Of a stretch of 64,000 bases of DNA, positions 5,620-51,716 are shown one piece after another. The notes under the pieces were generated by a model. It ran no database searches. It had not been told where the DNA came from and saw nothing but the letters and a program-made list of their open reading frames with translations. The position numbers were made by a program, and so were the translations under genes. The stretch is from Microscillaceae bacterium (lineage in GTDB: Bacteria; Bacteroidota; Bacteroidia; Cytophagales; Microscillaceae), in NCBI GenBank assembly GCA_011390205.1, contig JAABSX010000002.1, forward strand, positions 124,001-188,000. The letters run 5' to 3'. Within the stretch, counting starts at the first letter, position 1. Each line of letters begins with the position of its first letter.

Positions 5620-7752
5620 TCATTTTATCTTAAATCCAAGTATAAGCATGTCATCTATTTGTTTTTCGTTTGCACTGCCCATCCAGTTAGTAACTGTATC
5701 CAGCAAGATGCTTCCTTGGGTATTCATGGGTTGCTGGTGAATCTCTGTCAGAAGATTTCGCAGACGATTGATGCCATATTTTTTGCGTGCTTGGCTGCCG
5801 AATTGGTCTTGGAAGCCATCAGAGAAAATATAACAGGTAGTGGGCTTCTCGATAGATATCACATGCTTTTCAAAGATGCGTTCTTTTTCACGTTGCTCTC
5901 CTCCTATAGAAAGACGGCTGCCTTTGATATAAAAAAGCTGATTGTCTTGAAAATACACCAAAGGATTATGAGCACCCGCAAACTGCATTTCTTTTTTATC
6001 CTTGTCTATGACACACAGCGCAATGTCCATCCCATCTCGGTTATTACTTTCTTTTTGTTTGAGGATGTTTCTGATACCTTTGTGCATTTTATTCAAAATA
6101 AGGTCTGCCTCATAAATCTTTCTATTAATAATGACCTCAGTGAGTAAGTCATTAGAAATCAAACTCATAAAAGCACCAGGCACTCCATGCCCTGTGCAGT
6201 CGGCAGCTGCCACGATAATTTTGTTATCAACTTCAACAAACCAGTAAAAATCTCCCGAAACCACATCTTTGGGCTTGAATAACACAAAGGCATCTTCAAA
6301 GAGATTCTCTAGCAGCTCCAAGGGAGGCAGCATAGCATTTTGGATACTTTTGGCATAGTTGATACTAGACTTGATGTCTTGATAAGCCTGTTTAAGTTCT
6401 TTACTCTGAATTTCTAACTGCTCATTTTGAGATAAGATTTCTTCTTGTGATTGCTCTAGCTCTGTAGTTCTTTCCTTTACTTTTTGCTCTAAGAGTTTAT
6501 TTTGCTCTTCTAAAATACGTTCATTTTCTGCCTGAGCTATTTCTTTTTCTTCTTTAAATTGATTGATTTGGTCAGCAAGTGCAAAAGAAAAAAGTAGCAC
6601 TTCTATCAATGCACCTAATTGATGAATATGGTGCAGAATGAATGAGTCAGGAATCAAACCAATATTTTTGACATTGAGGATTGCCAGCCCTATCAAGAAG
6701 GTAATCCAACCCAACACAAAATAACGGGCATATCGCTCACCCTTATACCAGACATAGACTCCTAGACTAAATACCAGTGTGGTGCTGATGAATGTCCACA
6801 GAATCGTCATTAGGATGTATAGCTTGAAAGGAACGAAGAAAAATGCCAGCACAGAAAAAATACAATAGCCCAAGATAAAAGGATAATATTTATAAAGGCG
6901 GGGTAGTTTGCGGCTTATCTCCAAGAAATCAAAGCTAAACAGTACAATAAAAACAATATCTATGTGTACAGTCAGTAACAAAATAGACTTCTCAAGTGCT
7001 ACACTATCAAACCAAAGATAAGTAAAGCCATGCCCACTATTGGAAATCTGTGCGATGATATAAAAGAAAATGTAAGCACAATAATACAAATACCTGATTT
7101 TGCGAATGGCAGTAAACAAAAACAGGTTGTAAAACATCATAATACTCAATGCACCGAAGAACAAGCCATAAAACAAATTGGTAACAAAGGCGGTTTGCTC
7201 AAATTCGTACGCACTGCTGAGTGTAAGTGCTATGTTTGCTGGGCCTAATGAATTTACTTTTAAATAAAACGTGTGCACTCCGTCATCGTGAAGCTGCAGC
7301 GGAAACACATAAGAAATATAAGGATATACGTGCTTGACCTTGGATACTCTCCCACCAGCAATGGCTCGCGACCCATCACCTTCAGGAGGTATGTGGTATA
7401 GCAGCAGTGAATCTATGGTAGAGTACGCATTTTCTAAGTACCAGAGGTTCTCCTGAGTACCGATATGGCTTTTGAGAACAGGGTTTGTGTTTTTGACTTT
7501 AAACTTAATCCAGAAGTTAGATGGTCTTAGCCCAAAATTAAGACCCTTGGCAGGGGGAGGTATAAAAGCTGTATCTAATTTTCCTTGAATGATGTCTTCG
7601 GCTTTGAATGCCCTTTTTTCATCTTCAAAAAAGAGTATGTTGCTCTCAAAGTCGGTAGCAGACCGCCGCCCCTCGAGAGAAATCACTTCTTGACTGAATC
7701 CATAAGAAACACTCAAACAATATATAAGCAAAAAAAAGATACTTTTTTTCAT
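5620..7752 (-). CDS. 7TM-DISM receptor with C-terminal SpoIIE-type PP2C phosphatase
   Basis: 710 aa from the ATG at 7752, chosen because it begins the signal peptide MKKSIFFLLIYCLSVSYGFSQ; an in-frame ATG lies 30 codons upstream. Order: periplasmic 7TMR-DISMED2-like domain (about 25-170; LRPSNFWIKFKVKN), seven transmembrane helices (about 180-385), a long coiled coil (about 390-470), then a SpoIIE/PP2C phosphatase (about 480-710). The phosphatase has the metal-binding VVSGDFYWF, AADCTGHGVPGAFMS, DGMDIALC and IFSDGFQDQFG motifs. Such proteins dephosphorylate Ser/Thr on anti-anti-sigma-like partners. No kinase or STAS/SiaC partner is adjacent. It closely resembles the phosphatase domain of the protein at 40115, so cross-talk is possible. 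Confidence 0.88.
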   Translation of the reverse strand: MKKSIFFLLIYCLSVSYGFSQEVISLEGRRSATDFESNILFFEDEKRAFKAEDIIQGKLDTAFIPPPAKGLNFGLRPSNFWIKFKVKNTNPVLKSHIGTQENLWYLENAYSTIDSLLLYHIPPEGDGSRAIAGGRVSKVKHVYPYISYVFPLQLHDDGVHTFYLKVNSLGPANIALTLSSAYEFEQTAFVTNLFYGLFFGALSIMMFYNLFLFTAIRKIRYLYYCAYIFFYIIAQISNSGHGFTYLWFDSVALEKSILLLTVHIDIVFIVLFSFDFLEISRKLPRLYKYYPFILGYCIFSVLAFFFVPFKLYILMTILWTFISTTLVFSLGVYVWYKGERYARYFVLGWITFLIGLAILNVKNIGLIPDSFILHHIHQLGALIEVLLFSFALADQINQFKEEKEIAQAENERILEEQNKLLEQKVKERTTELEQSQEEILSQNEQLEIQSKELKQAYQDIKSSINYAKSIQNAMLPPLELLENLFEDAFVLFKPKDVVSGDFYWFVEVDNKIIVAAADCTGHGVPGAFMSLISNDLLTEVIINRKIYEADLILNKMHKGIRNILKQKESNNRDGMDIALCVIDKDKKEMQFAGAHNPLVYFQDNQLFYIKGSRLSIGGEQREKERIFEKHVISIEKPTTCYIFSDGFQDQFGSQARKKYGINRLRNLLTEIHQQPMNTQGSILLDTVTNWMGSANEKQIDDMLILGFKIK

Positions 7753-7857
7753 ATTCTTCGATAAACCCTGAGAGATGACAAGATAGAAGATTGCATTGAT
7801 TCCACCAAAATAACAAAATTTATACCTTTGTGCTGTCATCATTAAGATTATTTTTCT

Positions 7858-37806: not shown

Positions 37807-38634
37807 ATGCAAGAATTAGAAATTGCCCAATTACGCGCCCTCACTGATTTGCTGAAGAGCAAGTATAACTATAACTTTACAGACTATGCCATGTCTTCTT
37901 TCAGGAGGCGTATTCAGCGTATTATTGAGTTATATAAGTTTTCATCTTTTGATGCGCTCCTCCAGAAACTAAACTTAGGAAATCAAGAGTTTTTCCATGA
38001 GTTTTTATCTGAAATCACCGTCAATGTAACGGAGATGTTTCGTGACCCCACTTTTTGGATTGAAATCAGAGAAAAAATACTCCCTGATTTGCTTAACCTA
38101 AACAAGACCATCAGTATTTGGCATGCAGGCTGCTCTTCTGGTGAAGAGGTACTCTCTATGGCAATATTGCTGCGTGAGATGGGCATAGAAGGGCGGGTCA
38201 GAATCGTGGCTACAGACATAGATATGGCCATCTTAAAAAAAGCAAAAGAGCCTGTGTATTCTGTCAAGAATATGGAGCTAAATACCAAAAATTACGAAAG
38301 AGCCAAAGGTCCACATACATTAGATAGGTATTATGAAGAAAAAAGTGGCAAGGCATATTTAGATAAGTCATTGCTAAAAGATGTAATATTTAGAGAGCAT
38401 AATCTTGTAGAAGGGCAAGTGTTCTCCAAGTTTGATTTGATACTTTGCCGAAATGTAATGATTTATTTTAATCAATCACTCCAAAATCAAGTCTTGAAAG
38501 TGTTTCATGAGAGTTTGTTTAAGAATAGCTACCTTGCCGTAGGGTCCAAAGAATCTTTGATATGGTGTGAGATTGCCAATAAATTTTTGGTGGTGAATAA
38601 TGAAGAAAAAATTTACAAAAAAATTAAAGACTGA
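37807..38634 (+). CDS. cheR: CheR-type protein-glutamate methyltransferase
   Basis: 275 aa. CheR N-terminal helical domain (about 1-75; FRRRIQRIIELYKFSSFDALL and VNVTEMFRDPTFW) and SAM-dependent C-terminal domain: ISIWHAGCSSGEEVLSMAILL (SAM-binding glycine loop, about 102-122), VATDID (about 137-142) and FDLILCRNVMIYFNQSLQ (about 211-228). It methylates receptor glutamates in chemotaxis. No MCP, CheA, CheW or CheY gene is present in the window. It heads a run with cheB (23 nt later) and the SiaA/B/C-like genes, so it may modify the membrane sensor encoded at 40115. Confidence 0.92.
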   Translation: MQELEIAQLRALTDLLKSKYNYNFTDYAMSSFRRRIQRIIELYKFSSFDALLQKLNLGNQEFFHEFLSEITVNVTEMFRDPTFWIEIREKILPDLLNLNKTISIWHAGCSSGEEVLSMAILLREMGIEGRVRIVATDIDMAILKKAKEPVYSVKNMELNTKNYERAKGPHTLDRYYEEKSGKAYLDKSLLKDVIFREHNLVEGQVFSKFDLILCRNVMIYFNQSLQNQVLKVFHESLFKNSYLAVGSKESLIWCEIANKFLVVNNEEKIYKKIKD

Positions 38635-38657
38635 TCTAACAAGGATTTCATCGGCGT

Positions 38658-39263
38658 ATGAGGCGACTTTTTAAAATTGAACAAGACTATAAGGCCATTG
38701 TAATCGGAGGCTCGGCAGGAAGTTTTCAGGTGATTAGCAAATTACTAAGTCAGTTACCGAGTGATTTTGAGCTTCCCATCATTATGTGCTTGCACAGGCT
38801 GCGGCACGTGCGAAATGGCTTTGTGGAAGCACTCAATATCAAGAGTAGCATCCCTATACAAGAGCCAACGGACAAAGAACCTGTGCGCAAAGGTAAATTT
38901 TATTTATCTCCCGCAAATTATCACCTCTCGATAGAGTTAGGCAATACTTTTGCACTAACCACAGAAGACTTAATGAATAACTCTAGACCCTCTATTGATA
39001 TTTTGCTCCAGACTGGAGCTTATGCCTACAGAAATAAACTCATAGGCATTCTCTTATCAGGAGCAAACAGAGATGGAGCACAAGGTATGAAAATGATAAA
39101 TGAAAGAGGTGGACTCACGATTGTACAAGACCCAAAAGACTGCTTGATAGATACAATGCCCGTTTCTGCCCTGAATATCACAGACATTGATCACGTATTG
39201 AATGTGCAAGACATCATTGATTTTTTATTAAGTGTGGATAAATATATCAAAACTAAATCTTAG
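38658..39263 (+). CDS. cheB: CheB methylesterase domain protein lacking a receiver
   Basis: 201 aa, the catalytic CheB domain alone: VIGGSAGSFQVISKLL holds the catalytic Ser, MCLHRLRHVRNGF the His, LSGANRDGAQGMK the Asp. Full-length CheB has an N-terminal REC domain that inhibits the esterase until phosphorylated; it is absent here and the start MRRLFKIEQDYKAIVIGG leaves no room for it. Control must therefore differ. It is separated from the GAF gene by 9 nt and probably co-translated. Confidence 0.9.
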   Translation: MRRLFKIEQDYKAIVIGGSAGSFQVISKLLSQLPSDFELPIIMCLHRLRHVRNGFVEALNIKSSIPIQEPTDKEPVRKGKFYLSPANYHLSIELGNTFALTTEDLMNNSRPSIDILLQTGAYAYRNKLIGILLSGANRDGAQGMKMINERGGLTIVQDPKDCLIDTMPVSALNITDIDHVLNVQDIIDFLLSVDKYIKTKS

Positions 39264-39272
39264 AATAAACTC

Positions 39273-40070
39273 ATGAAGGCAATTTACCGCCAATTAGGTG
39301 TTCTTTTGAGCTTAGGTTTTATGATAAGCATCGCAATTCTAATTTATGCCTATTTACAAAGCCAAGAATCAATCAGATATGCACAGTTTCCCCTGATTTT
39401 TGGGGCAATACTCGGGCTTACACTCTCAGGAGTTTTTTCTATTGTGTTTTTATACCTCGGGCAAGACGAAAAAATTGATGTCATCTATACCAACCGAATC
39501 ATAGAGTCAAAAGAGACAGACACGGGTACAAAACAAGGGATAGCATCCAATGCCCAAAAAACTGAGCAATCTCAAGGGCTTCCCGTAAAAAAATTAGAAA
39601 GAATCATCATAGAAAATCAATACAATAAAAAACAACTCTTAGATGAGTTTTTAAAAGGAGTAGCCAGCTATTTGGAGGCTTCCGTAGGGATTATCTACCT
39701 TGCCAAAGCATTAGAAACTCAAAAAATAGTAGAAGTAGCAAGCACATATGCCTACTATAATCCAGACAAAGACCTGCCATACTACGAATTTGGGCAGGGG
39801 CTGGTAGGGCAAGTTGCCAAAAATGGAAAACTAATTCAAATCGATGCCGTACCCGAAGGGTATGTGCAAGTAGTATCGGGGCTTGGTGTCTCCACACCCA
39901 ACTATTTGATGATTTTTCCAGTAAAAAATGAAGAAGATGAGATACTTGCCATCATAGAGTTAGCATCTTTTCGTAGATTTGAGCAGAAAGAAGAAAAGTT
40001 TTTGAATGATGTGGCATTACTTTTGGCTAAGGAAATAGAAACAAATGAATATCAAAAACTGAGTCTTTAA
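39273..40070 (+). CDS. membrane-anchored GAF domain protein
   Basis: 265 aa. Two N-terminal transmembrane helices (about 8-28 and 36-60), a low-complexity linker (about 70-105), and a GAF domain (about 115-260). The GAF part (YEFGQGLVGQVAKNGKLIQI, YLMIFPVKNEEDEILAIIEL) resembles that inside the next protein (GLVGQAAVEQDTIL, CLLITPLITNETVYGVLEF). The two may therefore sense related ligands or pair with each other. No output domain is present. It lies between cheB and the large phosphatase, 44 nt before the latter. Confidence 0.82.
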   Translation: MKAIYRQLGVLLSLGFMISIAILIYAYLQSQESIRYAQFPLIFGAILGLTLSGVFSIVFLYLGQDEKIDVIYTNRIIESKETDTGTKQGIASNAQKTEQSQGLPVKKLERIIIENQYNKKQLLDEFLKGVASYLEASVGIIYLAKALETQKIVEVASTYAYYNPDKDLPYYEFGQGLVGQVAKNGKLIQIDAVPEGYVQVVSGLGVSTPNYLMIFPVKNEEDEILAIIELASFRRFEQKEEKFLNDVALLLAKEIETNEYQKLSL

Positions 40071-40114
40071 AAAACACAGCAACCAATAAAAAGACATTTG
40101 CTGATTAGAATGAT

Positions 40115-43100
40115 ATGAAATTAAGAACTGGAATAAGATTTAAAATTACTAGCCTCGTACTCATCGTGGTAGTATTGTCTGTCTTTGCCATCGGTTGGAC
40201 TGCCCTCTACATCAACCAAGGCATCGTGGAGAATCGCTATCGTGAGTCCATTCAGGCTGTGGCAAATCTTAAAGCACAAGAGATAGAGGCTTTTTTTCAG
40301 AAAATATCCTCTAACATTCAGTTTGGTACAAAACTAAATGCCGTCAAAGAAAAAGCAACATTTATATTCCCAGAAAGTAACGCACTCAGCAATAATACAG
40401 CACTTGCCACCACTGATTCTTTAGAAAGCATTGATACTAGTTTCCAAGAATTTTTCTTAGAAGACTCACTAGGGGCTGGTGAGCAAATGAGTGAGTTTTT
40501 ATCAGAAAGTGATGAAAATCTGCAAGATATTTTTGTGGAAATCTTGCAAAATTATGGCATCTACAACATCATACTCACCAATGCCCAAGAAAGAATTGTA
40601 TTCGTGGAGGGACCTCTCAGCAAAAAAGCAAACATCATCGGCACTAACTTTAACAACCTGGACCAAGATGGGGCTACTATCAGTGTAGGGCGTGATTCAG
40701 TTTATTTTAGCAATGTGTTTTATAGAAGAGATACCATCAGTATGTATGTCTCTGCACCCATTAAAAATGAAACCGATGAAACCATCGGCGTACTTATTTA
40801 TGACATCAACCTAGACAAAGTCTTAGAGATGACCCGAGACAAGGCAGGGCTAGGCAGCACAGGATATATACAACTCAGCAAGCTGATTATCAATACTGTA
40901 TTGAGGCTTAACCCTGCTCCCAACGAAACACAGGGCGAGTTTGAACAAAAACGAACTCTACTAGGGCTGGCAGATGCAGGTGAGCCTCTTAAACTCTCTG
41001 CAAAGGGACAAAGCGGATATGGATTCAGTAATGACCACAGAGGTGTGGGTGTGCTTGCAGCCTGGAGAAGCATCCCTACTGTAAACTGGGGAATCTCAGT
41101 ACAGATCGAAAAGCAAGAAGTCTATGCCCCTATACGCAGGCTTGCTATGAACCTAATCATTGCGGGCTTCGGAATTATTGTGATGTCTTTCGTGCTTGCA
41201 CTGGTCTTTTCCAACCTTTTAGTAAGACCACTGCTCGTGCTCCAAGAGTTTGTTAATTTACTTTCCGAAGGTATTTTGCCATCTAAATTGGCTAAAAACT
41301 CACGAGATGAACTCGGTGATATGACAGACAAACTTAACGAACTGGTAGATAACCTTAAAAGTACAGCTGACTTTGCGGTGCAAATCGGTAAAGAAAACTT
41401 TGCGGCTGATTTTCATCCAGCCAGTGAGCAAGATAACCTAGGCATTGCATTGCTCAACATGCGTGACAGTATCCAAGCATCTGCCGAAAAAGATGATGAA
41501 CGAAGCTGGATTGTAACAGGTCTGGCTGACATTGGTGATATCTTGCCTTCTATCTCTACCATCGGTGAGCTAGGAGAACTAGTAAGTGAATATGTAACCA
41601 ACAAAATCGGGGCGGTTCAGGGAGCGTTTTATACAGTTAATGACGAAAACAAAAACGATGTCTTTTTAGAGATGAACGCAAGCTATGCATATCATAAGAA
41701 AAAATATCTTCAAGCAAAGTTTAGGTTTGCCGAAGGGCTCGTGGGGCAGGCAGCCGTAGAGCAAGACACAATCCTAAGAACTGAAATCCCAGACCAATAC
41801 ATGACCATTTCTTCCGGGATACTGGGAGATAGAAAGCCGAAATGCTTGCTTATCACTCCATTAATCACCAATGAGACAGTCTATGGTGTGCTAGAGTTTG
41901 CAGGTTTCCAAGCCTTTGGCTCAAGAGAAGTAGAATTTGTCAAAGAAATTAGTGAGCTCATTGCACGTACAGTATTTAATATTAAAGTAAAAGAAAACAC
42001 AGAGCGTCTCCTAAGAGAATCACAGACAATGAGTAGTGAGCTGCAGCTCAAGCAAGAGGTACTACGCCAAAATGCAGAGGAGATGGAGGCAACCCAAGAC
42101 CAGCTACAAAGAACTAACCAAGCTCTAGAAAATCAAGTAAACGAAGTGCAAAAAGCCAATGATCGTATCCGATTATTGCTAGAAAATGCTTCTGAGGTCA
42201 TCACTATCTATGAGGCAGATGCTACTATCCGATATATTAGCCCTTCAGTAGAAAAAATCATGGGCTATACTCAAGATGAAATGATAGGGGTAAAAGACAT
42301 TGCCTATGTGCACCCCTCTGGTGTAGATACTTATGAGCAGCTATTTAAAGATTTGTTAGAAAAGCCTGATGAAAGGGTTAAAATAGAATTTAGCTACTTT
42401 ATCAAAAATGGAGATAGAATATGGCTAGAAGCCACAGGGACTAACCTCCTCTCTGACCCTGCCATACAGGGCATCGTACTAAATACACGAGACATTACTG
42501 AGAGAAGAGCTGCCGAGCGTGAGCAAAGACTCAGAGGGCAGATGCAGGCACTCTCAGAAAACTCACCCGACCTTATCACGCGTATCAGCAAGGAAGGAAC
42601 TGTATTTTACATTAACCCTACCATAGAAAACTACACAGGTAAGAATAAAGAGAATTATCTACAAAAACACCTTAAAGAACTAGAGCTAAGCCCAGAAGTT
42701 CTTGACTCATGGGCAGACATCATCAAAGAAGTACTGACCAAAAATCAGAAGATAAATCTTGATATGGACTTCCCGTCTGTCATGGGAGAGCGAGTGATGC
42801 AAGTAAATGCAATCCCTGAATACAATGACCATAATAACATGGAGTCTGTCTTGTTGGTATCTCATGACATTACCGAACGCAAAATTATAGAGCTAGAAAT
42901 ATCACAAAAAAGCCGTAAAATTACAGAAAGTATTAATTATGCCAAACGTATTCAGGAGGCTATTCTGCCAAGTAGTGGGCTCATGAGGCAGTACTTGCCA
43001 CAGTCTTTTATACTTTATAAGCCCAGAGACGTAGTAAGTGGTGACTTTCCTTGGTTTTTACAAAAAGGAGATGATGTCTTTGTGGCAGCAGTAGATTGTA

Positions 43101-43672
43101 CGGGGCATGGAGTACCAGGAGCTTTAATATCATTGATAGGCTTCTTCTTGCTCAACAACATCATCAATATTCATCAGGCAGATAGCCCAGGAGAGATACT
43201 TGATATGTTAGATGAAGAAGTAACACGCACACTAAGGCAAGATGAAAGTGATGCATCTTCCAAAGATGGAATGGATATCTCCCTTTGCAAAATCAATAAA
43301 AAGAAAATGCAAATGGAATATGCAGGGGCACACCGCCCACTTTATTATGTAAGTGATAAGCAATTATTAGAAATAAAAGGAAATAAATTCCCTATCGGGG
43401 GGGCACAGTACAAAAACAGAACAAGGTTTACAAACACAATCATAAACTATCAAGAGAATGATGCCGTATTCTTATTCTCCGATGGCTTCCCTGACCAGTT
43501 TGGCGGAGCTAAAAATAAAAAGTTCTCTCCACGCCGTATTCGTAACATCATACAAGAGAATCAAAATAAAGATTTAGACCAAATGAATAAAGTCATGGAG
43601 GAGGAGTTCGAGAAGTGGAGAGGAAATAATAAACAAACTGATGATGTATTGATGATTGGTATTAAATTATGA
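40115..43672 (+). CDS. HAMP-GAF-PAS-PAS-SpoIIE phosphatase (SiaA-like sensor)
   Basis: 1185 aa. TM1 (about 13-34), a large extracytoplasmic sensor region (about 35-345, Cache-like), TM2 (about 347-372), HAMP (about 372-425; RDELGDMTDKLNELVDNL), GAF (about 480-635), coiled coil, two PAS domains (about 690-810 and 815-935, each followed by a DITER element), and a SpoIIE/PP2C phosphatase (about 960-1185). Phosphatase motifs: VVSGDFPWF (usually GDFYWF), AVDCTGHGVPGALIS, DGMDISLC, LFSDGFPDQFG, TDDVLMIG. Topology and context match SiaA, which dephosphorylates SiaC. The neighbouring siaB and siaC supply the partners. The extra GAF/PAS modules go well beyond SiaA. Confidence 0.92.
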   Translation: MKLRTGIRFKITSLVLIVVVLSVFAIGWTALYINQGIVENRYRESIQAVANLKAQEIEAFFQKISSNIQFGTKLNAVKEKATFIFPESNALSNNTALATTDSLESIDTSFQEFFLEDSLGAGEQMSEFLSESDENLQDIFVEILQNYGIYNIILTNAQERIVFVEGPLSKKANIIGTNFNNLDQDGATISVGRDSVYFSNVFYRRDTISMYVSAPIKNETDETIGVLIYDINLDKVLEMTRDKAGLGSTGYIQLSKLIINTVLRLNPAPNETQGEFEQKRTLLGLADAGEPLKLSAKGQSGYGFSNDHRGVGVLAAWRSIPTVNWGISVQIEKQEVYAPIRRLAMNLIIAGFGIIVMSFVLALVFSNLLVRPLLVLQEFVNLLSEGILPSKLAKNSRDELGDMTDKLNELVDNLKSTADFAVQIGKENFAADFHPASEQDNLGIALLNMRDSIQASAEKDDERSWIVTGLADIGDILPSISTIGELGELVSEYVTNKIGAVQGAFYTVNDENKNDVFLEMNASYAYHKKKYLQAKFRFAEGLVGQAAVEQDTILRTEIPDQYMTISSGILGDRKPKCLLITPLITNETVYGVLEFAGFQAFGSREVEFVKEISELIARTVFNIKVKENTERLLRESQTMSSELQLKQEVLRQNAEEMEATQDQLQRTNQALENQVNEVQKANDRIRLLLENASEVITIYEADATIRYISPSVEKIMGYTQDEMIGVKDIAYVHPSGVDTYEQLFKDLLEKPDERVKIEFSYFIKNGDRIWLEATGTNLLSDPAIQGIVLNTRDITERRAAEREQRLRGQMQALSENSPDLITRISKEGTVFYINPTIENYTGKNKENYLQKHLKELELSPEVLDSWADIIKEVLTKNQKINLDMDFPSVMGERVMQVNAIPEYNDHNNMESVLLVSHDITERKIIELEISQKSRKITESINYAKRIQEAILPSSGLMRQYLPQSFILYKPRDVVSGDFPWFLQKGDDVFVAAVDCTGHGVPGALISLIGFFLLNNIINIHQADSPGEILDMLDEEVTRTLRQDESDASSKDGMDISLCKINKKKMQMEYAGAHRPLYYVSDKQLLEIKGNKFPIGGAQYKNRTRFTNTIINYQENDAVFLFSDGFPDQFGGAKNKKFSPRRIRNIIQENQNKDLDQMNKVMEEEFEKWRGNNKQTDDVLMIGIKL

Positions 43673-43797
43673 AATTAAATTTATAGTTTTGCCAAAGTTT
43701 CGGAGGCAACATCAAACACAACACAAGAAAATAAATTAATATAGCTATTATTGTAAGTAAGGGTCAGAAACAAAAGTATTAAAATAATTCAAGTCCT

Positions 43798-44352
43798 ATG
43801 AAATATATCTATGAGCTTCACAAGACAATGGTTGCCCGAAACCTAATCTTGGTTTATGAAGGTGAATTTACCCAAGAAATTACCAAATCGGTATTGGCAA
43901 TGGCGGAGCGCAACATGGATGCCATTGGTGAGGACTCAGCCGTAAAGCGAAAAGTGTTCAATGTAATGGTAGAATGCCTGCAGAACATCGTCAAACATTC
44001 TGACGAGGTAAATGACATCAATTACACTGATAAAAACAGTGCGGTGTTTATGATTGGAAAGCAAGATGATAAGTATATTATCACCTCAGGTAATCCAATC
44101 ACCAATGACAAGGTAGAGATGCTACAAGAAAAAATAGAACATATCAACTCCCTTGACAAGGAGGGGCTAAAGACCTATTACAAAGATAAAATTAAAAAAA
44201 GCCAAGGACTCTCCGCCAAAGGCGGTGCAGGACTAGGTTTCATAGATATGGCCCGTAAATCTGGGCAGAAGCTTCAATTTGATTTTGAGCATATTAATGA
44301 GAATATATCATTCTTTTCTCTTAAAACCATTATCCGAAGAAATAATCAATAA
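43798..44352 (+). CDS. siaB: SiaB-family protein kinase (GHKL fold)
   Basis: 184 aa. A degenerate GHKL ATPase: N box VMVECLQNIVKHSDE with Glu59 and Asn63, then the glycine-rich G box KGGAGLGFIDMARKSG (about 141-156). There is no histidine phosphoacceptor domain, so it should phosphorylate a protein Ser/Thr as anti-sigma-type kinases do. In Pseudomonas SiaB phosphorylates SiaC. Here siaC follows after 26 nt and a SiaA-like phosphatase precedes. Family assignment is by motif and by context. Confidence 0.88.
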   Translation: MKYIYELHKTMVARNLILVYEGEFTQEITKSVLAMAERNMDAIGEDSAVKRKVFNVMVECLQNIVKHSDEVNDINYTDKNSAVFMIGKQDDKYIITSGNPITNDKVEMLQEKIEHINSLDKEGLKTYYKDKIKKSQGLSAKGGAGLGFIDMARKSGQKLQFDFEHINENISFFSLKTIIRRNNQ

Positions 44353-44378
44353 ACAGAATTTATAATCAATTATTACGT

Positions 44379-44741
44379 ATGGAAGTTATCAATTTAGAAT
44401 CCACAGAGGATACCCCTAAAATAATCTTAGATAGAAATAATGGTATCTTTGAGATATCTGGACGCTCATTGCCAGAAGACTCAGCAGAGTATTACCAACC
44501 TATCCTAGATTGGCTGGATGAGTACAGCAAAAATCCAAACCCTGAGACGGTTTTTATTTTTAAACTAGAGTACTTTAATACAGCCTCCTCGAAACTTATT
44601 TTAGACATCTTGTCTAAACTAGAAACAATCGAGAATACGACCATCTCTTGGTTTTATCACGAAGATGACGAAGATATGGAAGAGGCTGGGTCAGAGTTTT
44701 CTGATCTTGTAGAAGTGCCTTTTGAATTCAAAACCTACTGA
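44379..44741 (+). CDS. siaC: SiaC-family regulatory phosphoprotein (DUF1987)
   Basis: 120 aa. The core PKIILDRNNGIFEISGRSLPE (split about residues 13-33; key residues D18, G22, G28) and FKLEYFNTASSKLILDIL define DUF1987/SiaC. Thr68 in YFNTASSK falls at the position phosphorylated in Pseudomonas SiaC, and Ser70/Ser71 follow. Unphosphorylated SiaC activates the diguanylate cyclase SiaD; no GGDEF gene is present here. It is presumably the substrate of the adjacent kinase and phosphatase. A stem-loop overlaps the stop codon. Confidence 0.9.
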   Translation: MEVINLESTEDTPKIILDRNNGIFEISGRSLPEDSAEYYQPILDWLDEYSKNPNPETVFIFKLEYFNTASSKLILDILSKLETIENTTISWFYHEDDEDMEEAGSEFSDLVEVPFEFKTY

Positions 44742-44761
44742 GAGAGTTGAGTAACTCTCTC
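44740..44761 (+). promoter_or_regulatory. stem-loop overlapping the siaC stop
   Basis: GAGAGAGTT (44740-44748) pairs with AACTCTCTC (44753-44761), loop of 4, followed by a pyrimidine-rich TTTCTCTCTT tract. It may be a weak terminator or an RNA-processing site that lowers expression of the transporter. Confidence 0.5.
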
Positions 44762-44802
44762 TTTCTCTCTTAGACTTTATATAGGCAGCAACTCATTCGT
44801 TG

Positions 44803-44833
44803 GGTTTTCAGTACCATAAAATACCTGAAAACC
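44803..44833 (+). promoter_or_regulatory. second stem-loop between siaC and the transporter gene
   Basis: GGTTTTCAG (44803-44811) pairs with CTGAAAACC (44825-44833). It lies within the 168-nt leader of the transporter, about 75 nt before its ATG. No T run follows, so a leader or stabilising role is likelier than termination. Confidence 0.45.
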
Positions 44834-44909
44834 ATCTATGTAGGTGCTAGGCTATAACATTCAAAGAAACTATCTTTCAAACTTAAACACATACTCAAGG
44901 CAATTTCTC

Positions 44910-47900
44910 ATGAGTGAAAAAATTCTTGAAGCACTTACCCAACTATTCGGAATCATTACCAAACAAGATGGGGGAGCTACTAAAGTAGAGCGTACATTCG
45001 TAATAGATTACTTTAAGAACGAACTAGACCAAGAGTCAGTCAAAACTTATATGTCTATATATGATAAAGTATCTAACTATGACGAGCACCGCGTGAAAGA
45101 AGATGGCAACCAAGAAATGGCCGCAAGTGACTCCGTAAGAGTGCTCAAATACTGCCGTCAGATTACTAAAGAGCTTGAGCAGCGTCAGAAAGTTATCATT
45201 CTTGTGAAATTGCTAGAGCTTATTTCATCAGATGGTAATTTTACGAAGCAGCGCCGTGAGGTAATTAATACGATTTCTTCTACTTTCAAAATTCAAAACG
45301 AGTACAAAGACATAGAGAGCTTTGTAATGAGTACTGACTCTTCTCAACTCAACCAAGACAATATCTTGGTGGTGAGTAACAACCCTAAGTTCTTGAACCC
45401 CGAAGTAGAACACTGGCAAGAAGATAACCTAGAAGGGGAGATTATATTTAAAAGAGTAGAAACAGGAGATCTTTATTTCGTAAAATATATCGGAGATACA
45501 CAGGTCAAAGCCAATGGCTTTGCTATGAAGATTAATCAAATCTATTTGTTTTCAAATGGAAGTAGTATCAAAACTGAAAGTGGAGTATCAATATACTATG
45601 GAGATGTAATCAGTACTTTTTTAGAGGAGCTCCAAGACTCCAAAATATCCTTCGTAGCAAAAGACATAGAGTTCGAATTTCCGAATGGCGTCAAAGGAAT
45701 ACAAACGCTCACTATCTCAGAACCACAAGGAAAATTACTTGGAATCATGGGGGGCAGTGGTGCAGGCAAGACCACACTTATGAATGTCTTGGCTGGTATA
45801 GAAACACCCTCCCAAGGCAGTGTGAAGATTAATGGCATTGATATCCACAAATACAAGAAAAAGATAGAAGGTGTCATAGGTTATATAGCCCAAGATGATC
45901 TATTGATAGAAGAGCTTACGGTTTACCAAAACCTCTATTACAATGCCAAGCTTTGCTTTAAGCACCTCAATGAAGAAGAGATAGACGAGCGAGTCATGGT
46001 TACACTGAGCAATCTTGGTCTTGACCATATCAAAAATTTAAGGGTGGGAAGTGTCTTAAACAAAAAAATCAGTGGTGGGCAAAGAAAAAGACTGAATATA
46101 GCCCTAGAGCTTATTCGTGAGCCTGCCGTGATGTTTGTAGATGAGCCTACCTCAGGGCTATCTTCCAAAGATTCTGAGAACGTAATTGACCTATTAAAAG
46201 AACTCTCCCTCAAAGGAAAACTAATATTTGTGGTCATTCACCAACCCTCTTCAGATATCTATAAAACCTTTGACAAGATGATTATCTTAGACAAAGGGGG
46301 CTATCTTATTTATTATGGCAATCCGATTGATGCCATTACCTATTTTAAGGAACAAACACACCAAGCCGATAGTGGAAGGCGAAGTGAAAACCCAGAAGAA
46401 CTTTTTAACCTGATAGAGAAAGAAGTAGTTGATGAGTTTGGAAAGCCCACAGGCAAGCGGCAGATAAGCCCGAAAGAATGGTATGAAAAATACCTGCAAG
46501 GTGAGCCCAGAGACCTTGTAGAGTCAATAGAAGGAGACCCACCTTCATCTCTCAAAAGACCCAATGTACTTAATCAGGCTATTTTATTTACGATACGAGA
46601 CTTCCTCTCAAAGGTGTCTAATCAGCAGTATATGCTTATCAACCTGCTAGAAGCTCCTTTGCTTGCTTTATTGCTTTCTTTTGTCATCAGATTTCAGAAT
46701 GAGCCAAACACAGGAGAGTATGTATATAGATACAATGACAATATCCCTGCTTATATCTTGATATGTATCATCATATCTATGTTTATGGGGCTTACGGTCA
46801 GTGCAGAGGAGATTATCAAAGACCAAAAAATTCAAAAAAGAGAAAGGTTTCTTAACCTCAGCCGTTTTGGATATTTGTCTTCTAAGATTATTATCTTATT
46901 CTTACTCTCTGCTGTCCAAACTTTCTGCTTTGTGGTGATAGGAAATATTATCCTAGAAGTAGATGGAGAATTTCTGACCTATTGGCCAGTGTTGTTCGCA
47001 ATCTCGTGCTTTTCTAATGTGCTAGGGCTGAATATATCCTCTACCTTTAACTCAGTCATTACGATTTACATCACTATCCCGCTATTGCTCATTCCTCAAA
47101 TGATTTTGAGTGGAATTATATTTAGGTACGAAAAAATGAACAACGTACTGACAGAAAAAGGCAAAGTGCCTCTTGTAGCAGATATTATGGTCTCTAGGTG
47201 GGCTTTTGAAGCCATTATGGTCAATCAATATATCAACAATCCCTATGAAAAGGATTATTACAATATTGACAAAAAAATAAGTGAAAACGACTATAAACTA
47301 AAGTTTTGGATACCCGAAATACTCGTTAGAGTAAATAGAAGCTTGGATAACCTAAACAAAGCCAAAAAAACAGACTCTCTGAAGAAAGAAATTCAAAAAG
47401 ATTTGTCTCTTATCCGAAATGAAATAGAGATTGAAAATTTCAGAATGGATATCCTTGATGGATTCAGTCTGGATAAAAAACTCAAAGTAGAAAACTTCGA
47501 TGAGCGAAGTGCAGACAGACTAATCACTTACTTAGACTCGGCCAAAGCCATTTATCTAAAAAAATTAAATGATGCCAATAAAGACAGGGATGACTTAGTC
47601 AGGATTATACAAGAACGTAGGGATTCTACCTATGATATTACAAAGTTTAAGAACCGTTATTTCAATGAAGGACAGCATGTTTTTGTAACCAACATAGAGA
47701 TTAAAGACCGTTACATAGAGCACAACGGAAGGATTATTCAGCAGATTAACCCTGTTTTTAATGAGCCGAAGCCTCGGGATAATCCTTTTGATTATCGAAC
47801 ACATTTCATGGCTCCCAAAAAACCATTTTTTGGGTCATTGTTTGATACGTATTATTTTAATGTCGCCGTGATATGGTTTTTTACACTGATACTATTTTTT

Positions 47901-47972
47901 ACATTGTATTTTGACTTCTTTAAAAATGTATTGGGCTTATTTGGCAAATTATCTTTTGGAAAGAAAAATTAA
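44910..47972 (+). CDS. TerB-like/ABCG-type ABC transporter, fused ATPase and permease
   Basis: 1020 aa from the ATG at 44910 (a GTG 22 codons upstream is less likely). Order: N-terminal helical TerB-like domain (about 1-130), a beta-rich region resembling FHA (about 150-235), then an ABC ATPase. The ATPase has Walker A GGSGAGKT (281-288), signature ISGGQRKR (387-394) and Walker B VMFVDEPTSG (407-416). An ABC2-type membrane domain of about five helices follows (about 570-740), then a charged, coiled-coil-rich ~200-residue insert, and a final helix (about 985-1005). ATPase-before-membrane order is that of the ABCG/White half-transporters, which dimerise to export lipids or other hydrophobic compounds. 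The N-terminal module could receive the SiaC signal. Confidence 0.88.
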   Translation: MSEKILEALTQLFGIITKQDGGATKVERTFVIDYFKNELDQESVKTYMSIYDKVSNYDEHRVKEDGNQEMAASDSVRVLKYCRQITKELEQRQKVIILVKLLELISSDGNFTKQRREVINTISSTFKIQNEYKDIESFVMSTDSSQLNQDNILVVSNNPKFLNPEVEHWQEDNLEGEIIFKRVETGDLYFVKYIGDTQVKANGFAMKINQIYLFSNGSSIKTESGVSIYYGDVISTFLEELQDSKISFVAKDIEFEFPNGVKGIQTLTISEPQGKLLGIMGGSGAGKTTLMNVLAGIETPSQGSVKINGIDIHKYKKKIEGVIGYIAQDDLLIEELTVYQNLYYNAKLCFKHLNEEEIDERVMVTLSNLGLDHIKNLRVGSVLNKKISGGQRKRLNIALELIREPAVMFVDEPTSGLSSKDSENVIDLLKELSLKGKLIFVVIHQPSSDIYKTFDKMIILDKGGYLIYYGNPIDAITYFKEQTHQADSGRRSENPEELFNLIEKEVVDEFGKPTGKRQISPKEWYEKYLQGEPRDLVESIEGDPPSSLKRPNVLNQAILFTIRDFLSKVSNQQYMLINLLEAPLLALLLSFVIRFQNEPNTGEYVYRYNDNIPAYILICIIISMFMGLTVSAEEIIKDQKIQKRERFLNLSRFGYLSSKIIILFLLSAVQTFCFVVIGNIILEVDGEFLTYWPVLFAISCFSNVLGLNISSTFNSVITIYITIPLLLIPQMILSGIIFRYEKMNNVLTEKGKVPLVADIMVSRWAFEAIMVNQYINNPYEKDYYNIDKKISENDYKLKFWIPEILVRVNRSLDNLNKAKKTDSLKKEIQKDLSLIRNEIEIENFRMDILDGFSLDKKLKVENFDERSADRLITYLDSAKAIYLKKLNDANKDRDDLVRIIQERRDSTYDITKFKNRYFNEGQHVFVTNIEIKDRYIEHNGRIIQQINPVFNEPKPRDNPFDYRTHFMAPKKPFFGSLFDTYYFNVAVIWFFTLILFFTLYFDFFKNVLGLFGKLSFGKKN

Positions 47973-47983
47973 CGATATTTTTG
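47955..47983 (+). promoter_or_regulatory. possible promoter of the first paralogous lipoprotein
   Basis: TTTG (47955-47958), 17-nt spacer, TATTTTTG (47976-47983), 35 nt before the ATG at 48018. The spacer is two short of the usual 19, so support is moderate. Confidence 0.35.
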
Positions 47984-48017
47984 ATGGATTTCTTCTGCTT
48001 TTACTAAATTATTTGAT

Positions 48018-48986
48018 ATGAAAACAATAAACGAATTAAAATCTAATATGAAGTCTCTAAGTCTATTTTTTGTCAGGCCTCTATCTGTCATCGTGTTGTC
48101 CGCACTTTTTCTGGTATCTTGCGGAGGCTCCTCAAGTAAGCAGACAGGTGATGAGCTTCTTAAAGAAAGTAAAAATGACTCCGAAGATGGGTCAAAAGTC
48201 CAAACACCTGCCATCTCTAGAGAGGTGCTGAGTGATATCGTGAAATCAATCCCCTCACCTCTTGAGATTTCTTTTCTTATCAAAGATTTGGGTATTAGAT
48301 ATGACCGAAGTATCCTTAACTCAGCAGACAACAGTGCCAATTATAATACAAGCTATAAGCAAGCACTGAATCTAGGAATCTACAGTACAGACTTAGGCTA
48401 TGCAAATATCTATGAGCAAACCCAAGATGCACTTTATTACTTAGGCTCTGTGAGAGAAATGGCAGAAGGACTTAAAATCGGACAGTTTTTTGACTTTAAT
48501 ACCATCAAAGATCTTGCTACCAAAAGTGATAATTTAGACTCCCTCTTGCTCGTAACTAACACCAACCTAGAAAGAATCAATGACCACTTGCAAGAAAATG
48601 GCAGGGCTGACCTCACCATACTTATCCTTACAGGCGGATGGCTTGAAGCACTTTATCTTACTTGTGAAGTAGCCAAAAAACAACCCAATGAATTACTCAG
48701 AAACAGAATAGGAGAGCAAAAGCTTATCTTAGATCAGTTATTACTTTTACTCTCTTTCTACGAAGAGTCACCAGATATAAAGACACTCATCAGTGAGCTC
48801 AATGAGCTTCAAAAAATCTATGATAATGTCAAGATTACGTATGAATATGAAGAATCTACCACAGAAGAAGAAAATGGAATGCTAATAGTAAGAGACAATA
48901 CACTTAGCAAAATTAACTTTACGGAAAAAGACCTAGACAATATCTTAGCAGTTACCATCAAGATTAGAAAGACAATCATAGAATAA
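48018..48986 (+). CDS. lipoprotein, paralogue A of a three-gene exported family
   Basis: 322 aa, not a recognised family. Lipoprotein signal with lipobox LVSCGG (Cys35), a short acidic linker (40-65), then a helical domain shared with the proteins at 49487 and 50355. Shared blocks are IPSPLEISFLIKDLGIRYDRS (split by eye at about 78-98), LNLGIYSTDLGYANIYEQ (about 117-134) and TGGWLEALYLTCEVAKK (about 205-221), then REQK-like EQKLILDQLLLLL. The lipid anchor suggests the outer or inner membrane, periplasmic side. It directly follows the ABC transporter (45 nt) and is closed by a strong terminator, so transporter and lipoprotein probably form the end of the sia operon. Confidence 0.82.
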   Translation: MKTINELKSNMKSLSLFFVRPLSVIVLSALFLVSCGGSSSKQTGDELLKESKNDSEDGSKVQTPAISREVLSDIVKSIPSPLEISFLIKDLGIRYDRSILNSADNSANYNTSYKQALNLGIYSTDLGYANIYEQTQDALYYLGSVREMAEGLKIGQFFDFNTIKDLATKSDNLDSLLLVTNTNLERINDHLQENGRADLTILILTGGWLEALYLTCEVAKKQPNELLRNRIGEQKLILDQLLLLLSFYEESPDIKTLISELNELQKIYDNVKITYEYEESTTEEENGMLIVRDNTLSKINFTEKDLDNILAVTIKIRKTIIE

Positions 48987-49020
48987 TAATTTAGGGTATC
49001 TTTCTTAGTCCTTGACATAT

Positions 49021-49068
49021 TTTTCTTGTCTGTGAGCTCGGTAGCTTACAGACAAGAAAATTTTTTTT
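49021..49068 (+). terminator. strong intrinsic terminator after paralogue A
   Basis: TTTTCTTGTCTGTGAGCT (49021-49038) pairs with AGCTTACAGACAAGAAAA (49043-49060), one mismatch, followed by eight T. It ends the cheR-to-lipoprotein run 35 nt past the stop. Confidence 0.93.
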
Positions 49069-49486
49069 AGGAAAGTCTCAAATGTTGATGTAAAAATATA
49101 CTTGATAAAAATAAAACCTGTGGTTATTAAGTCCAGAAGTAATAAAAAAAATGCTGTGGATACAGGATACTCAATACTAACGTGAAAACAAAATCAAAGT
49201 ACAAACGCATCTGATGCCTGTTAAATACATCATAATACAAAGTTATCTCAACACTTTAACCCCTCTTATACGTATGAATAGATGTGGTTAATGAAGTAGG
49301 CAAAACCTTAACAATAAATAGGAAGTACAGAACATCAGCAAACAAAACAAAATCAATTTGCTGGGTTCGCTATTAAGTACACACTTAATTAGGTAAGTTT
49401 TACCTCTTTTAAATTAACTCCGCAAAAAAGACTTAAAAAACATTTTAATCGTTACTTTCAAGACAAGAAAAAATAATTAGATAGTT
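49069..49486. other. intergenic control region before paralogue B
   Basis: About 420 AT-rich bases without a gene. I see no good TTTG-N20-TAnnTTTG match on the plus strand; on the minus strand CAAAGTTA (about 49238-49245) would be a -7 box, but nothing is encoded that way. The promoter for the B-C-secreted-protein unit must be here by position. Confidence 0.35.
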
Positions 49487-50338
49487 ATGAAAACAAATAT
49501 AATGAGAACGCTTGTATTACTCTGTTTCTTTTCAATAAGCATAAACGCGCACAGTCAAGATGCTTTGTTGAGCTCAATTATCAAAACGGTATCTCCCATC
49601 GAGACTGCTGACTTGATTAAGAAACTAAACATCCCTTATAACCGAAGTTTACTAAATTCACCCAATAAAAGTTACTCCTCCGACTTTAAAAACGCACTTA
49701 ACTTAGGTGTATATAGCAGTGACTTGGGATATGCCAACATCAACGAACAGTCTGCCGATGCACTAAATTATCTGACAGCCGTGAAAAGTACTGCTGATAA
49801 AATCAATGTAGGAGAGTTCATCAATGTAGGGAAAATATTAGGTATCGCTGCCAATAAAGACAATCTTAATATGCTTCTTGAAGTAACCACAGAAACATTT
49901 GAGAAAATGAGTGATTACCTACAGCAGCAAAATCGTTCAGACCTGGCAGCTATGGTTCTAGTAGGAGGTTATATAGAGTCCTTTTACATTATGTGCGAAG
50001 TAGCAAAAAAATACCCTAATAACACAGAACTTTCTACACGTGTCATAGAACAAAAATTAGTGCTAGAGCAAATCTTACAAGTACTAAAAACCCCCCAGTT
50101 TAGCAACAACCAAGATATACAAAGATTGGTGTATGACCTGAATAACCTAGATATACTTATGGCGAAATATAAGTTTGTGGGCTCAGGAGAAGTAGAAACT
50201 ACACAAAAAACAATAGGAGATATAGAAGTAGTGAGTATCTCAGACAAGAATCTAGCTCCCGAAATCGCCATTAGCCCCGCAGATTTAGAAGCCATCACAG
50301 GTGTAGTAGGGGAAATTAGAAAAGCAATCATCCAATAA
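49487..50338 (+). CDS. exported protein, paralogue B
   Basis: 283 aa. Cleavable signal peptide (about 1-23, ending INAHSQ) with no lipobox cysteine, so periplasmic or secreted rather than lipid-anchored. The mature part repeats the family blocks: IKKLNIPYNRSLLNSPN (about 42-58), LNLGVYSSDLGYANINEQ (about 68-85), VGGYIESFYIMCEVAKKYPN (about 155-174) and IEQKLVLEQILQVL. The C-terminus (GVVGEIRKAIIQ) also matches paralogue A (KIRKTIIE). Function unknown. Paralogue C follows after 16 nt. Confidence 0.82.
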   Translation: MKTNIMRTLVLLCFFSISINAHSQDALLSSIIKTVSPIETADLIKKLNIPYNRSLLNSPNKSYSSDFKNALNLGVYSSDLGYANINEQSADALNYLTAVKSTADKINVGEFINVGKILGIAANKDNLNMLLEVTTETFEKMSDYLQQQNRSDLAAMVLVGGYIESFYIMCEVAKKYPNNTELSTRVIEQKLVLEQILQVLKTPQFSNNQDIQRLVYDLNNLDILMAKYKFVGSGEVETTQKTIGDIEVVSISDKNLAPEIAISPADLEAITGVVGEIRKAIIQ

Positions 50339-50354
50339 AAATTTAAACACCAAA

Positions 50355-51245
50355 ATGAGGAAACTATATACACCTGTTATAGCCATCCTAATTCTTTGTT
50401 GCTTCACAAGTGAAATAAAAGCACAAGTAACCGAAGCAGAAGTCCCAGAATCAGAGGTGCTGGAAAAGTTAATGCAAACTATTCCGTCCCCCTCCGAATT
50501 TTCGTCTTTGGTAAAGGAAATAGGTATCAAGTTTAACCCCGAATTGTTAAATTCTCCCGCCAATATCTCTAAGTATAATTCGGACTATCAGAAAGCCATC
50601 AATTTAGGAATATACAGCACAGACTTAGGCTATCTTAATGTATATGAAAACAAAGATTCTCTCGGGCTAGTATATTTGACGAGTATTAAGCAAATTGCTG
50701 ATAAGCTAGATGTGGGCGCTCAAATAAACTTTGGTAAGATTACCCAGTATGCCATGCTAAACAATGTAAATGGCCTACTATCAGAGACATCTTATTCTTT
50801 TGATAAAATCAATAGACAGCTGGTAGATGAGAAAAAAGGCTTTATTTCTGTCTTAATCCTGACAGGAGGTTGGTTAGAAACACTTTATCTGACCTGCCAA
50901 GCAGCCAAAGAATATCCAAATAAACTGCTTGACACTCGGGTTGCAGAGCAAAAAATTATTTTAGAACAGATACTTCCTATACTGAAAACTTATGAAAAAG
51001 GGGAGCAAATGGCCGAACTCTACCGTGAACTGTCTTCTCTAAATGAGTTTTTTCAGAAAATTAGAATCAAACAAAAAATTCGTTCAGAAGAAAATTACGA
51101 AATACAAATGTGGGGAGAACTAGAGGTGATTGTTTACCTTAATGAAGCCGATAGCAAAGATCAAATTAAGTACAAGGCAGAAGATTTAAATGATATTCTA
51201 AAGGAAACATCCCTCATAAGGTCTAAAATGGTAGAAGCAAAGTAG
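50355..51245 (+). CDS. exported protein, paralogue C
   Basis: 296 aa. Signal peptide with a Cys pair (LILCCFTSEIKAQ), probably cleaved after KAQ. The mature protein carries the same blocks as A and B: IPSPSEFSSLVKEIGIKFNP (about 36-55), INLGIYSTDLGYLNVYENKD (about 78-97), TGGWLETLYLTCQAAKEYPN and AEQKIILEQILPIL. It is nearer to A than to B in the GGWLE block. No catalytic pattern is visible; the family appears all-helical. It sits between paralogue B and a small secreted protein in one unit. Confidence 0.82.
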   Translation: MRKLYTPVIAILILCCFTSEIKAQVTEAEVPESEVLEKLMQTIPSPSEFSSLVKEIGIKFNPELLNSPANISKYNSDYQKAINLGIYSTDLGYLNVYENKDSLGLVYLTSIKQIADKLDVGAQINFGKITQYAMLNNVNGLLSETSYSFDKINRQLVDEKKGFISVLILTGGWLETLYLTCQAAKEYPNKLLDTRVAEQKIILEQILPILKTYEKGEQMAELYRELSSLNEFFQKIRIKQKIRSEENYEIQMWGELEVIVYLNEADSKDQIKYKAEDLNDILKETSLIRSKMVEAK

Positions 51246-51284
51246 AAATACACAAATGTCTTAACACAAAATAGAACTTATCAA

Positions 51285-51716
51285 ATGAACTTAAAAAAAA
51301 TCACTCATACATTAACTCTCGCAATTGTATTGTGTTTGATGGGTTTATACTCAAATGTACAGGCACAATGCAATACAGAGCAATACACTGACAAAGGAAT
51401 CAAAAAACTGCAAGAGGGATACACATTCCTTAAGAGCTACCCGATAAGTGGAGAACAGGGCAAAAAGTATTCTTACATATTTAGTCAGGGGACTTCTTAT
51501 CTTATCACACTTGCCAATAATACCTCTGATAGCAATGGACTATACATTACGCTCTATGACTCTAATAACCACGAAATAGCCACAAGCTACAACAATGGCA
51601 AGTTTTATTCTGCTGTATCTTTTACGTGTAAAAAAACAGGAATTTATCATCTTAAATTTAGCTTCCGAGATGCAAAAGATTACTGTGCAGCAGGTGTGTT
51701 GGCTATGAAAAGATAG
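51285..51716 (+). CDS. small secreted beta-rich protein
   Basis: 143 aa, not recognised. Signal peptide ending NVQAQ (about 1-28), mature domain of ~115 residues rich in Tyr/Ser/Asn with alternating strands (YSYIFSQGTSYLITLANN, LYITLYDSNNHEIATSY, FTCKKTGIYHLKFSF). Cys residues occur at the mature N-terminus, in FTCKK and in DYCAAG. The pattern 'YxIxLxN..LYITLYD...FTC..TGIYxLxFSF' is like a C2-like or PPC-type beta sandwich. It ends the unit with the two paralogues, before a bidirectional terminator. Confidence 0.7.
   Translation: MNLKKITHTLTLAIVLCLMGLYSNVQAQCNTEQYTDKGIKKLQEGYTFLKSYPISGEQGKKYSYIFSQGTSYLITLANNTSDSNGLYITLYDSNNHEIATSYNNGKFYSAVSFTCKKTGIYHLKFSFRDAKDYCAAGVLAMKR

Follow-up and report, generated by a model that had tools for sequence, protein, structure and literature searches.

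The window analysed here, a stretch of 64,000 nucleotides from a Microscillaceae bacterium (contig JAABSX010000002.1, positions 124,001 to 188,000), carries on its forward strand a run of co-oriented genes (37807-51716) in which the genes of a predicted SiaABC-type partner switch are followed by those of an ABCG-type transporter and exported proteins. Re-read with gene and family tools (Table 1), the run holds what a sequence-only reading of the same DNA had described: a SpoIIE phosphatase sensor, a SiaB-family kinase and a SiaC phosphoprotein, all three on the plus strand where that reading had put them, with Thr68 of SiaC at the expected phosphosite within YFNTASSK; a cheR and a receiver-less cheB at the front, the 201-residue CheB consisting of the methylesterase domain and giving no receiver match in a family profile search; a TerB-like/ABC transporter directly after siaC, with matches to ABC_tran and ABC2_membrane; and a lipoprotein followed by two paralogous exported proteins, a lipobox being recognisable by eye in the first alone. 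Two features go beyond that reading, namely a conserved small exported gene that closes the run and an FHA-like fold between the TerB and ATPase parts of the transporter.

In terms of classification, the operon is a SiaABC-type variant: its kinase and phosphoprotein belong to the SiaB and SiaC families, whereas all three switch proteins stay below the NCBIfam equivalog cut-offs (SiaA 208.5 bits against 700, SiaB 99.5 against 225, SiaC 77.6 against 150), so that the operon is not a member of the SiaABCD system proper.

Table 1. Genes of the operon at 37807-51716 of the window
Feature	Position	Strand	Evidence and remarks
cheR methyltransferase	37807..38634	+	PF01739, 147 bits; heads the conserved run
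cheB, methylesterase domain alone	38658..39263	+	PF01339, residues 14-189 of 201 aa
Membrane protein (by eye) with GAF domain	39273..40070	+	PF13185/PF01590; position conserved
SiaA-like sensor phosphatase, GAF-PAS-PAS-SpoIIE, weak dCache and HAMP	40115..43672	+	PF07228, 67.7 bits
SiaB-family protein kinase (DUF6272)	43798..44352	+	NF038262, 190 bits (cut-off 85); PF19788, 158 bits
SiaC phosphoprotein (predicted), Thr68 in YFNTASSK	44379..44741	+	PF09345, 133 bits (cut-off 24.5)
TerB / FHA-like / ABCG-type ATPase-permease half-transporter	44844..47972	+	Domain profiles, N-terminal model, fold matches
Exp family member A, predicted lipoprotein (Cys35, by eye)	48018..48986	+	Kept with the transporter in most named loci
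Exp family member B, exported, no lipobox by eye	49487..50338	+	41% identity to A
Exp family member C, exported, no lipobox by eye	50355..51245	+	36% identity to A
Sm, small exported protein	51285..51716	+	Closes the conserved run; in 68/70 named loci

Conservation of the gene order and distribution of its parts

The order of these genes was followed through 80 named loci, the best 80 of at least 542 confirmed relatives, which were found via the N-terminus of the Sia-linked transporter and are thus biased to this subfamily. They include Fulvivirga, Marivirga, Ohtaekwangia, Chryseotalea, Cesiribacter, Persicobacter, Flexithrix and Rhodocytophaga, as well as one Alkaliflexus and one Chitinophagales metagenome-assembled genome. 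In 75 of the 80 loci siaC adjoins the transporter gene, always on the same strand (75/75) and with a median gap of 90 bp (26 to 1214); the other five are L164, L179, L193, L202 and L206. Where at least 5 kb of upstream sequence is present, siaA, siaB and siaC occur together in 56 of 65 loci, and the five-gene block of cheR, cheB, siaA, siaB and siaC is complete in 51 of the 59 loci with at least 9 kb; on the other side, Exp and Sm are each found in 68 of the 70 loci that extend downstream for 2 kb or more. Open reading frames were taken from a script of our own, and the siaC genes of L144 and L159, which lie behind overlapping frames, were recovered by a six-frame pass. Outside this pattern, a genome from another family of the class (G045) carries a siaB-siaC pair convergent to the transporter, with Exp behind the latter; since this transporter groups with the Sia-free paralogues on a long branch, the pairing may be a separate association. 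Distant TerB-ABC and Exp relatives in another class (L093, L094) share a neighbourhood, with other genes between them.

In Pseudomonas the SiaABC trio acts on the diguanylate cyclase SiaD, and the sequence-only reading had noted that no GGDEF gene is present here. This holds well beyond the window: the bacterium's own genome (96.9% complete) gives zero GGDEF matches, while 8 of 14 control genomes do match, and a cyclase encoded elsewhere in the genome is on this ground rejected as the partner of SiaC. At a larger scale, 241 genomes of the order gave the transporter N-terminus in 119 (E ≤ 0.001, a count that takes in Sia-free paralogues), SiaC in 123, or about half, and GGDEF in 5; SiaC and GGDEF meet in a single genome (G487), the other 122 of the 123 SiaC-bearing genomes having no GGDEF match. 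With GGDEF in 5 of 241 genomes, cyclic di-GMP made by GGDEF enzymes cannot be the usual output of SiaC in this order. Both families are present in 117 of these genomes, the transporter alone in 2 (G306, G394), SiaC alone in 6 and neither in 116. A phylum sample of 296 genomes contains SiaC in 17 and a strong match to the transporter N-terminus (E below 1e-40) in five, all five SiaC-positive. In the 25 genomes of the order with a single SiaC, it lies within 2.5 kb of the transporter in 20, and two others (G300, G323) have no transporter match. The interpretation offered by the sequence-only reading, in which SiaC phosphorylation gates transport or secretion in response to an envelope signal, is therefore borne out in part, in the conserved order and in a genome where GGDEF was not found, the gating and the signal being putative.

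SiaC is not confined to this operon. The genome's 11 SiaC matches represent ten siaC genes, two pieces sharing one frame of contig C115. For nine of the ten, the sequence read around them shows no TerB-ABC transporter (G000, L031-L038), so that the switch is likely to have further outputs. In other genomes of the family the SiaC matches reach at least 17. Among the 21 of genome G534, four lie in tandem within about 2 kb of contig C103 (3361-5480). SiaB-family proteins of about 365-380 residues also occur (L040, 4720-5814; L159, 17707-18807; G534, contigs C192 and C196; G535, contig C388), and the long frames of G534 and G535 hold two DUF6272 matches each.

siaC in lineages without siaA and siaB

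A natural loss of the upstream genes gives a view of what SiaC may do at the transporter. In eight loci (L135, L147, L153, L154, L173, L181, L195, L226), called orphan loci here, siaC stands beside the transporter and siaA/siaB were not seen; for L153 and L135 the upstream sequence reaches only about 1 and 0.4 kb from the transporter. In the remaining six, siaC and the transporter are both present, and so are Exp and Sm wherever the contig extends far enough. A search of the whole genomes found no SiaB-family kinase in seven of the eight, the genome of L181 having one SiaB beside a second siaC, while all six full-operon control genomes have SiaB; completeness is known for one of the loss genomes, G512 (L226), at 100%. 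All orphan loci except L195, together with the SiaC-free L179, form a clade nested among full-operon rows with Shimodaira-Hasegawa-like approximate likelihood ratio (SH-aLRT) support of 98-99, taken from short searches in which the long branches of the window, L039, L085, L179 and L217 are flagged. As L195, too short for the transporter tree, falls outside this clade in the N-terminal tree (support 86-92), the siaA/siaB block was probably lost twice.

Orphan siaC is under purifying selection: of 21 pairs, the 9 in which dS is finite, many of them near saturation, give ratios of nonsynonymous to synonymous rates (dN/dS) of 0.07-0.17; its proteins diverge at a dN of 0.09-0.44 against 0.03-0.09 for their sisters, L195 being left out of both figures. 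The divergence is unevenly placed. Thr68, Ser70, Ser71 and Lys72 are invariant in all 89 other transporter-linked SiaC rows, a set that includes rows from contigs ending before siaB is reached, the G045 row, which stands apart, and loci shared by the two collections. In the eight orphans, Thr68 is lost twice (L135 and L226, both in SiaB-free genomes), Ser71 six times and Lys72 seven times, and Ser70 has become Thr in seven, whereas a group of C-terminal residues including an acidic run (Trp91, Asp96, Asp97, Glu98, Asp99, Glu102, Gly104, Glu106) is kept in all eight. In our reading of these alignments, the switch site would decay once the kinase is gone, while SiaC would keep another job at the transporter. 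Because siaC is kept without SiaB as the phosphosite region decays, these lineages favour a SiaC that acts on the transporter itself.

A putative switch-controlled exporter, its rivals and its known counterparts

The transporter starts, by alignment with its relatives, at an ATG at residue 23 (44910) and carries PF00005 (residues 289-437) and then PF01061 (578-796) on one chain, the order of ABCG-type half-transporters, which are dimers; its best NCBIfam match is TIGR00955 (238 bits, cut-off 736). The N-terminal part (residues 23-285) was modelled with a predicted local distance difference test score (pLDDT) of 86.5. The model contains a TerB-like helical domain (2h5n, Z 9.8, root-mean-square deviation 3.4 over 118 residues; 2ou3, Z 8.4), for which the profile score of 22.0 bits lies just under the cut-off of 24.4, followed by a predicted FHA-like sandwich resembling the MEK1 FHA domain (5yyz, Z 8.1, root-mean-square deviation 2.4 over 78 residues). 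A Z score of about 8 can by itself reflect a common arrangement; the stronger point for this predicted fold is that FHA chains fill nearly all of the 50 rows of fold matches, at Z 6-8. Foldseek returned nothing at E ≤ 0.001 for the N-terminal model (best E 2.7e-3), and the Pfam FHA profile has no match in the transporter at E 0.01.

Taken together, the operon is probably a SiaABC-type partner switch with an ABCG-type exporter as its output. Between them, the SiaB kinase and the sensor phosphatase in the membrane would determine whether SiaC is phosphorylated at Thr68; unphosphorylated SiaC would bind the cytosolic part of the transporter, either its TerB/FHA-like N-terminus or its ATPase, and alter its activity, and phosphorylation by SiaB would release it, as for Pseudomonas SiaC and SiaD. 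The unphosphorylated protein is taken as the binding form by analogy with SiaC/SiaD and MlaB/MlaF. The transporter, the Exp lipoprotein and Sm may act together on a cargo of the envelope. We infer the direct binding, the direction of control, the cargo and the role of CheR/CheB alike. A more elaborate version, in which SiaC is a dissociable subunit of the exporter set by kinase and phosphatase and the sensor is adapted by CheR/CheB methylation outside chemotaxis, is put forward tentatively.

Several observations weigh against SiaC acting on this exporter. The orphan loci were selected for keeping siaC, and kinship inflates every co-occurrence count. The genomes of L164, L179 and L193, which belong to the Sia-linked clade, have no SiaC match and still keep the transporter, and SiaC is therefore not essential to it; as SiaB is absent from all three, the same decay may have gone further in them. 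L202 and L206 come from genomes with 21 and 14 SiaC matches, none seen beside the transporter, and in G304, G320 and G333 (f60) the lone SiaC lies away from a transporter that is of the Sia-free type. A Sia-free paralogous pair of Exp and TerB-ABC transporter is present in the bacterium's own genome (L085, 8850-12989 of contig C55), and similar pairs occur at L087 and L088. The search for a docking site was likewise unproductive. The TerB domain was considered as the dock, as it contains 14 of the 29 positions that separate Sia-linked from Sia-free transporters (Fisher p 8e-6, uncorrected for kinship), three of which are Lys/Arg and seemed to suit the acidic C-terminus of SiaC; since the SiaC-free L164, L179 and L193 change 0-2 of these 14 positions, they do not mark a dock and the candidate was dropped. 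The window's own transporter departs at 4 of the 14. The positions changed upon SiaC loss (15/302 in L179, 13/301 in L193, 2/232 in L164) are too scattered to locate a dock; L198, L222, L093 and L094, with an incomplete or too distant N-terminus, were left out of this analysis and of the N-terminal tree.

Three other arrangements would place the same genes side by side. The transporter could be the sensor side of the switch, which would read its state or its cargo and deliver SiaC to a target elsewhere in the cell: the weak periplasmic dCache match of the phosphatase could sense cargo or Exp, and nine of the ten siaC genes of this genome have no such transporter in the sequence read around them. 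This is nevertheless improbable, the persistence of siaC at the transporter where siaB has gone genome-wide being hard to explain if SiaC served solely as a relay to another target, and 20 of 25 single-SiaC genomes holding their SiaC at the transporter. Those nine siaC genes would equally suit ordinary co-transcription, in which SiaABC acts on a sigma factor or some other target and shares no more than its expression with the transporter, and so would the separability of SiaC and transporter and the resemblance of SiaC to anti-sigma factor antagonists described in PMC7647112. The adjacency is conserved in numerous families of the order as well as at the Alkaliflexus locus, the two families share a presence profile across the genomes of the order, and siaC is kept after the upstream block is lost, all of which make simple co-expression an unlikely account.

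In the remaining arrangement phosphorylated SiaC is the bound form, its phospho-Thr68 being recognised by the FHA-like domain in the manner of FHA I of Rv1747 with phosphorylated Rv2623, the precedent given in PMC5549992; the predicted FHA-like fold (5yyz, Z 8.1) is what speaks for it here. None of the 86 Sia-linked rows, a few of them N-terminally incomplete, shows the canonical phospho-threonine patterns (G-R...S-x-x-H, N-G-T/S), the N-G-T of MEK1 has no counterpart in the aligned stretch, and SiaC is kept where the kinase has gone, with Thr68 then lost in 2 of 8, which together make this arrangement very unlikely. The exporter as an output of the switch remains the preferred account.

The Mycobacterium tuberculosis exporter Rv1747 has a Hanks-type partner kinase, PknF, and the SiaB kinase of the operon is presumably of the GHKL type. 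Rv1747 is described as an FHA-bearing ABC exporter that is encoded together with a Ser/Thr kinase and controlled by a phosphoprotein (PMC3908365, PMC5549992), an arrangement that the operon, with its predicted FHA-like fold, would share; the FHA domain of Rv1747 binds phospho-threonine, whereas the fold predicted here lacks the canonical pattern and is joined to a TerB domain. The switch itself compares with SiaABCD of Pseudomonas aeruginosa, described as having a PP2C sensor phosphatase, a SiaB-type kinase, Thr68 of SiaC and an effector gene after them (PMC7647112, PMC8457831), with phosphorylation of Thr68 preventing SiaD binding (PMC8457831). Unlike SiaABCD, the present operon has a transporter in place of the cyclase, in a genome without a GGDEF match, stays below the equivalog cut-offs, and adds cheR, cheB and exported partners. 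According to PMC7647112, HsbRA-HsbD and BgrUVW-BgrR also direct a partner switch to an enzyme instead of a sigma factor; both target diguanylate cyclases. In comparison, MlaFEDB of Escherichia coli encodes a small STAS-type protein with an ABC transporter: MlaB binds the ATPase MlaF, the equivalent threonine lies in their interface, and the T52E substitution weakens binding (PMC7367683). MlaFEDB is an MCE lipid system and not of the ABCG type, MlaB is needed for MlaF stability whereas SiaC can be lost here, and PMC7367683 does not show phosphorylation of MlaB, its authors leaving open a control of the STAS-type subunit by phosphorylation. The operon makes this question testable, since it places next to a transporter a SiaC that comes with a kinase and a phosphatase, and since kinase-free lineages are at hand for comparison.

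The literature cited gives SiaC one output, a diguanylate cyclase, and the sequence-only reading did not recognise the present combination as described; in agreement, none of the matches listed from the open-access literature, judged by title and beginning of the abstract, concerns a SiaC- or SiaB-linked ABC transporter. If true, the proposed arrangement would give a partner switch a membrane transporter as its direct target.

Sensor phosphatase, CheR/CheB and exported partners

The SiaA-like protein of 1185 residues matches GAF, PAS and SpoIIE above the Pfam cut-offs, and its PP2C motifs are conserved in an alignment of 66 sequences. The dCache (26.4 bits, cut-off 45) and HAMP (20.8 bits, cut-off 25) matches are both sub-threshold, the former being the basis for the idea of an envelope signal. 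A second PP2C/SpoIIE-type phosphatase frame lies outside the operon on the minus strand of the window (5623-7857).

CheR and CheB probably tune this sensor phosphatase. Methyl-accepting chemotaxis protein (MCP) signalling domains gave no match in 7 of 14 genomes tested, and five of these seven (G049, G146, G186, G428, G337) have cheR and cheB in the operon; a classical chemoreceptor is therefore an unlikely substrate in such genomes, the sensor phosphatase or the GAF protein being candidates, and it is on these five that the suggested CheR/CheB adaptation outside chemotaxis is based. The window's own genome has one MCP match. Of 75 operon SiaAs, 70 have within their coiled coil a motif E-E-x-x-A-S/T, which we take to resemble a CheR site (72 of 75 over the whole protein, a count that takes in matches outside the coil in L162 and L210). 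It was set aside as proving nothing about the CheR target: it is present in L219 and L221, where an upstream cheR-cheB was not seen, and missing in L162, L197, L207, L210 and L217, all with cheR-cheB; its count of 0/13 in the remaining sequences includes cut-off operon copies and is unusable as a control.

The exporter that the operon brings to light is uncharacterised, and the family of its exported partners, encoded downstream, gives neither a Pfam nor an NCBIfam match. The Exp model (pLDDT 82.8) has a best Foldseek E of 0.44 and a best VIA-align Z of 8.2 over 93 residues, the level of common helical bundles; profile matches in the PDB to a kinetochore subunit (E 0.0017) and to YmcA/RicA (0.035-0.054) were taken as chance. 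Sm has no Pfam match and a best PDB E of 0.39. The three Exp copies are peculiar to the window, as the 80 named loci, each shown with six genes, have at most one Exp 3' of the transporter.

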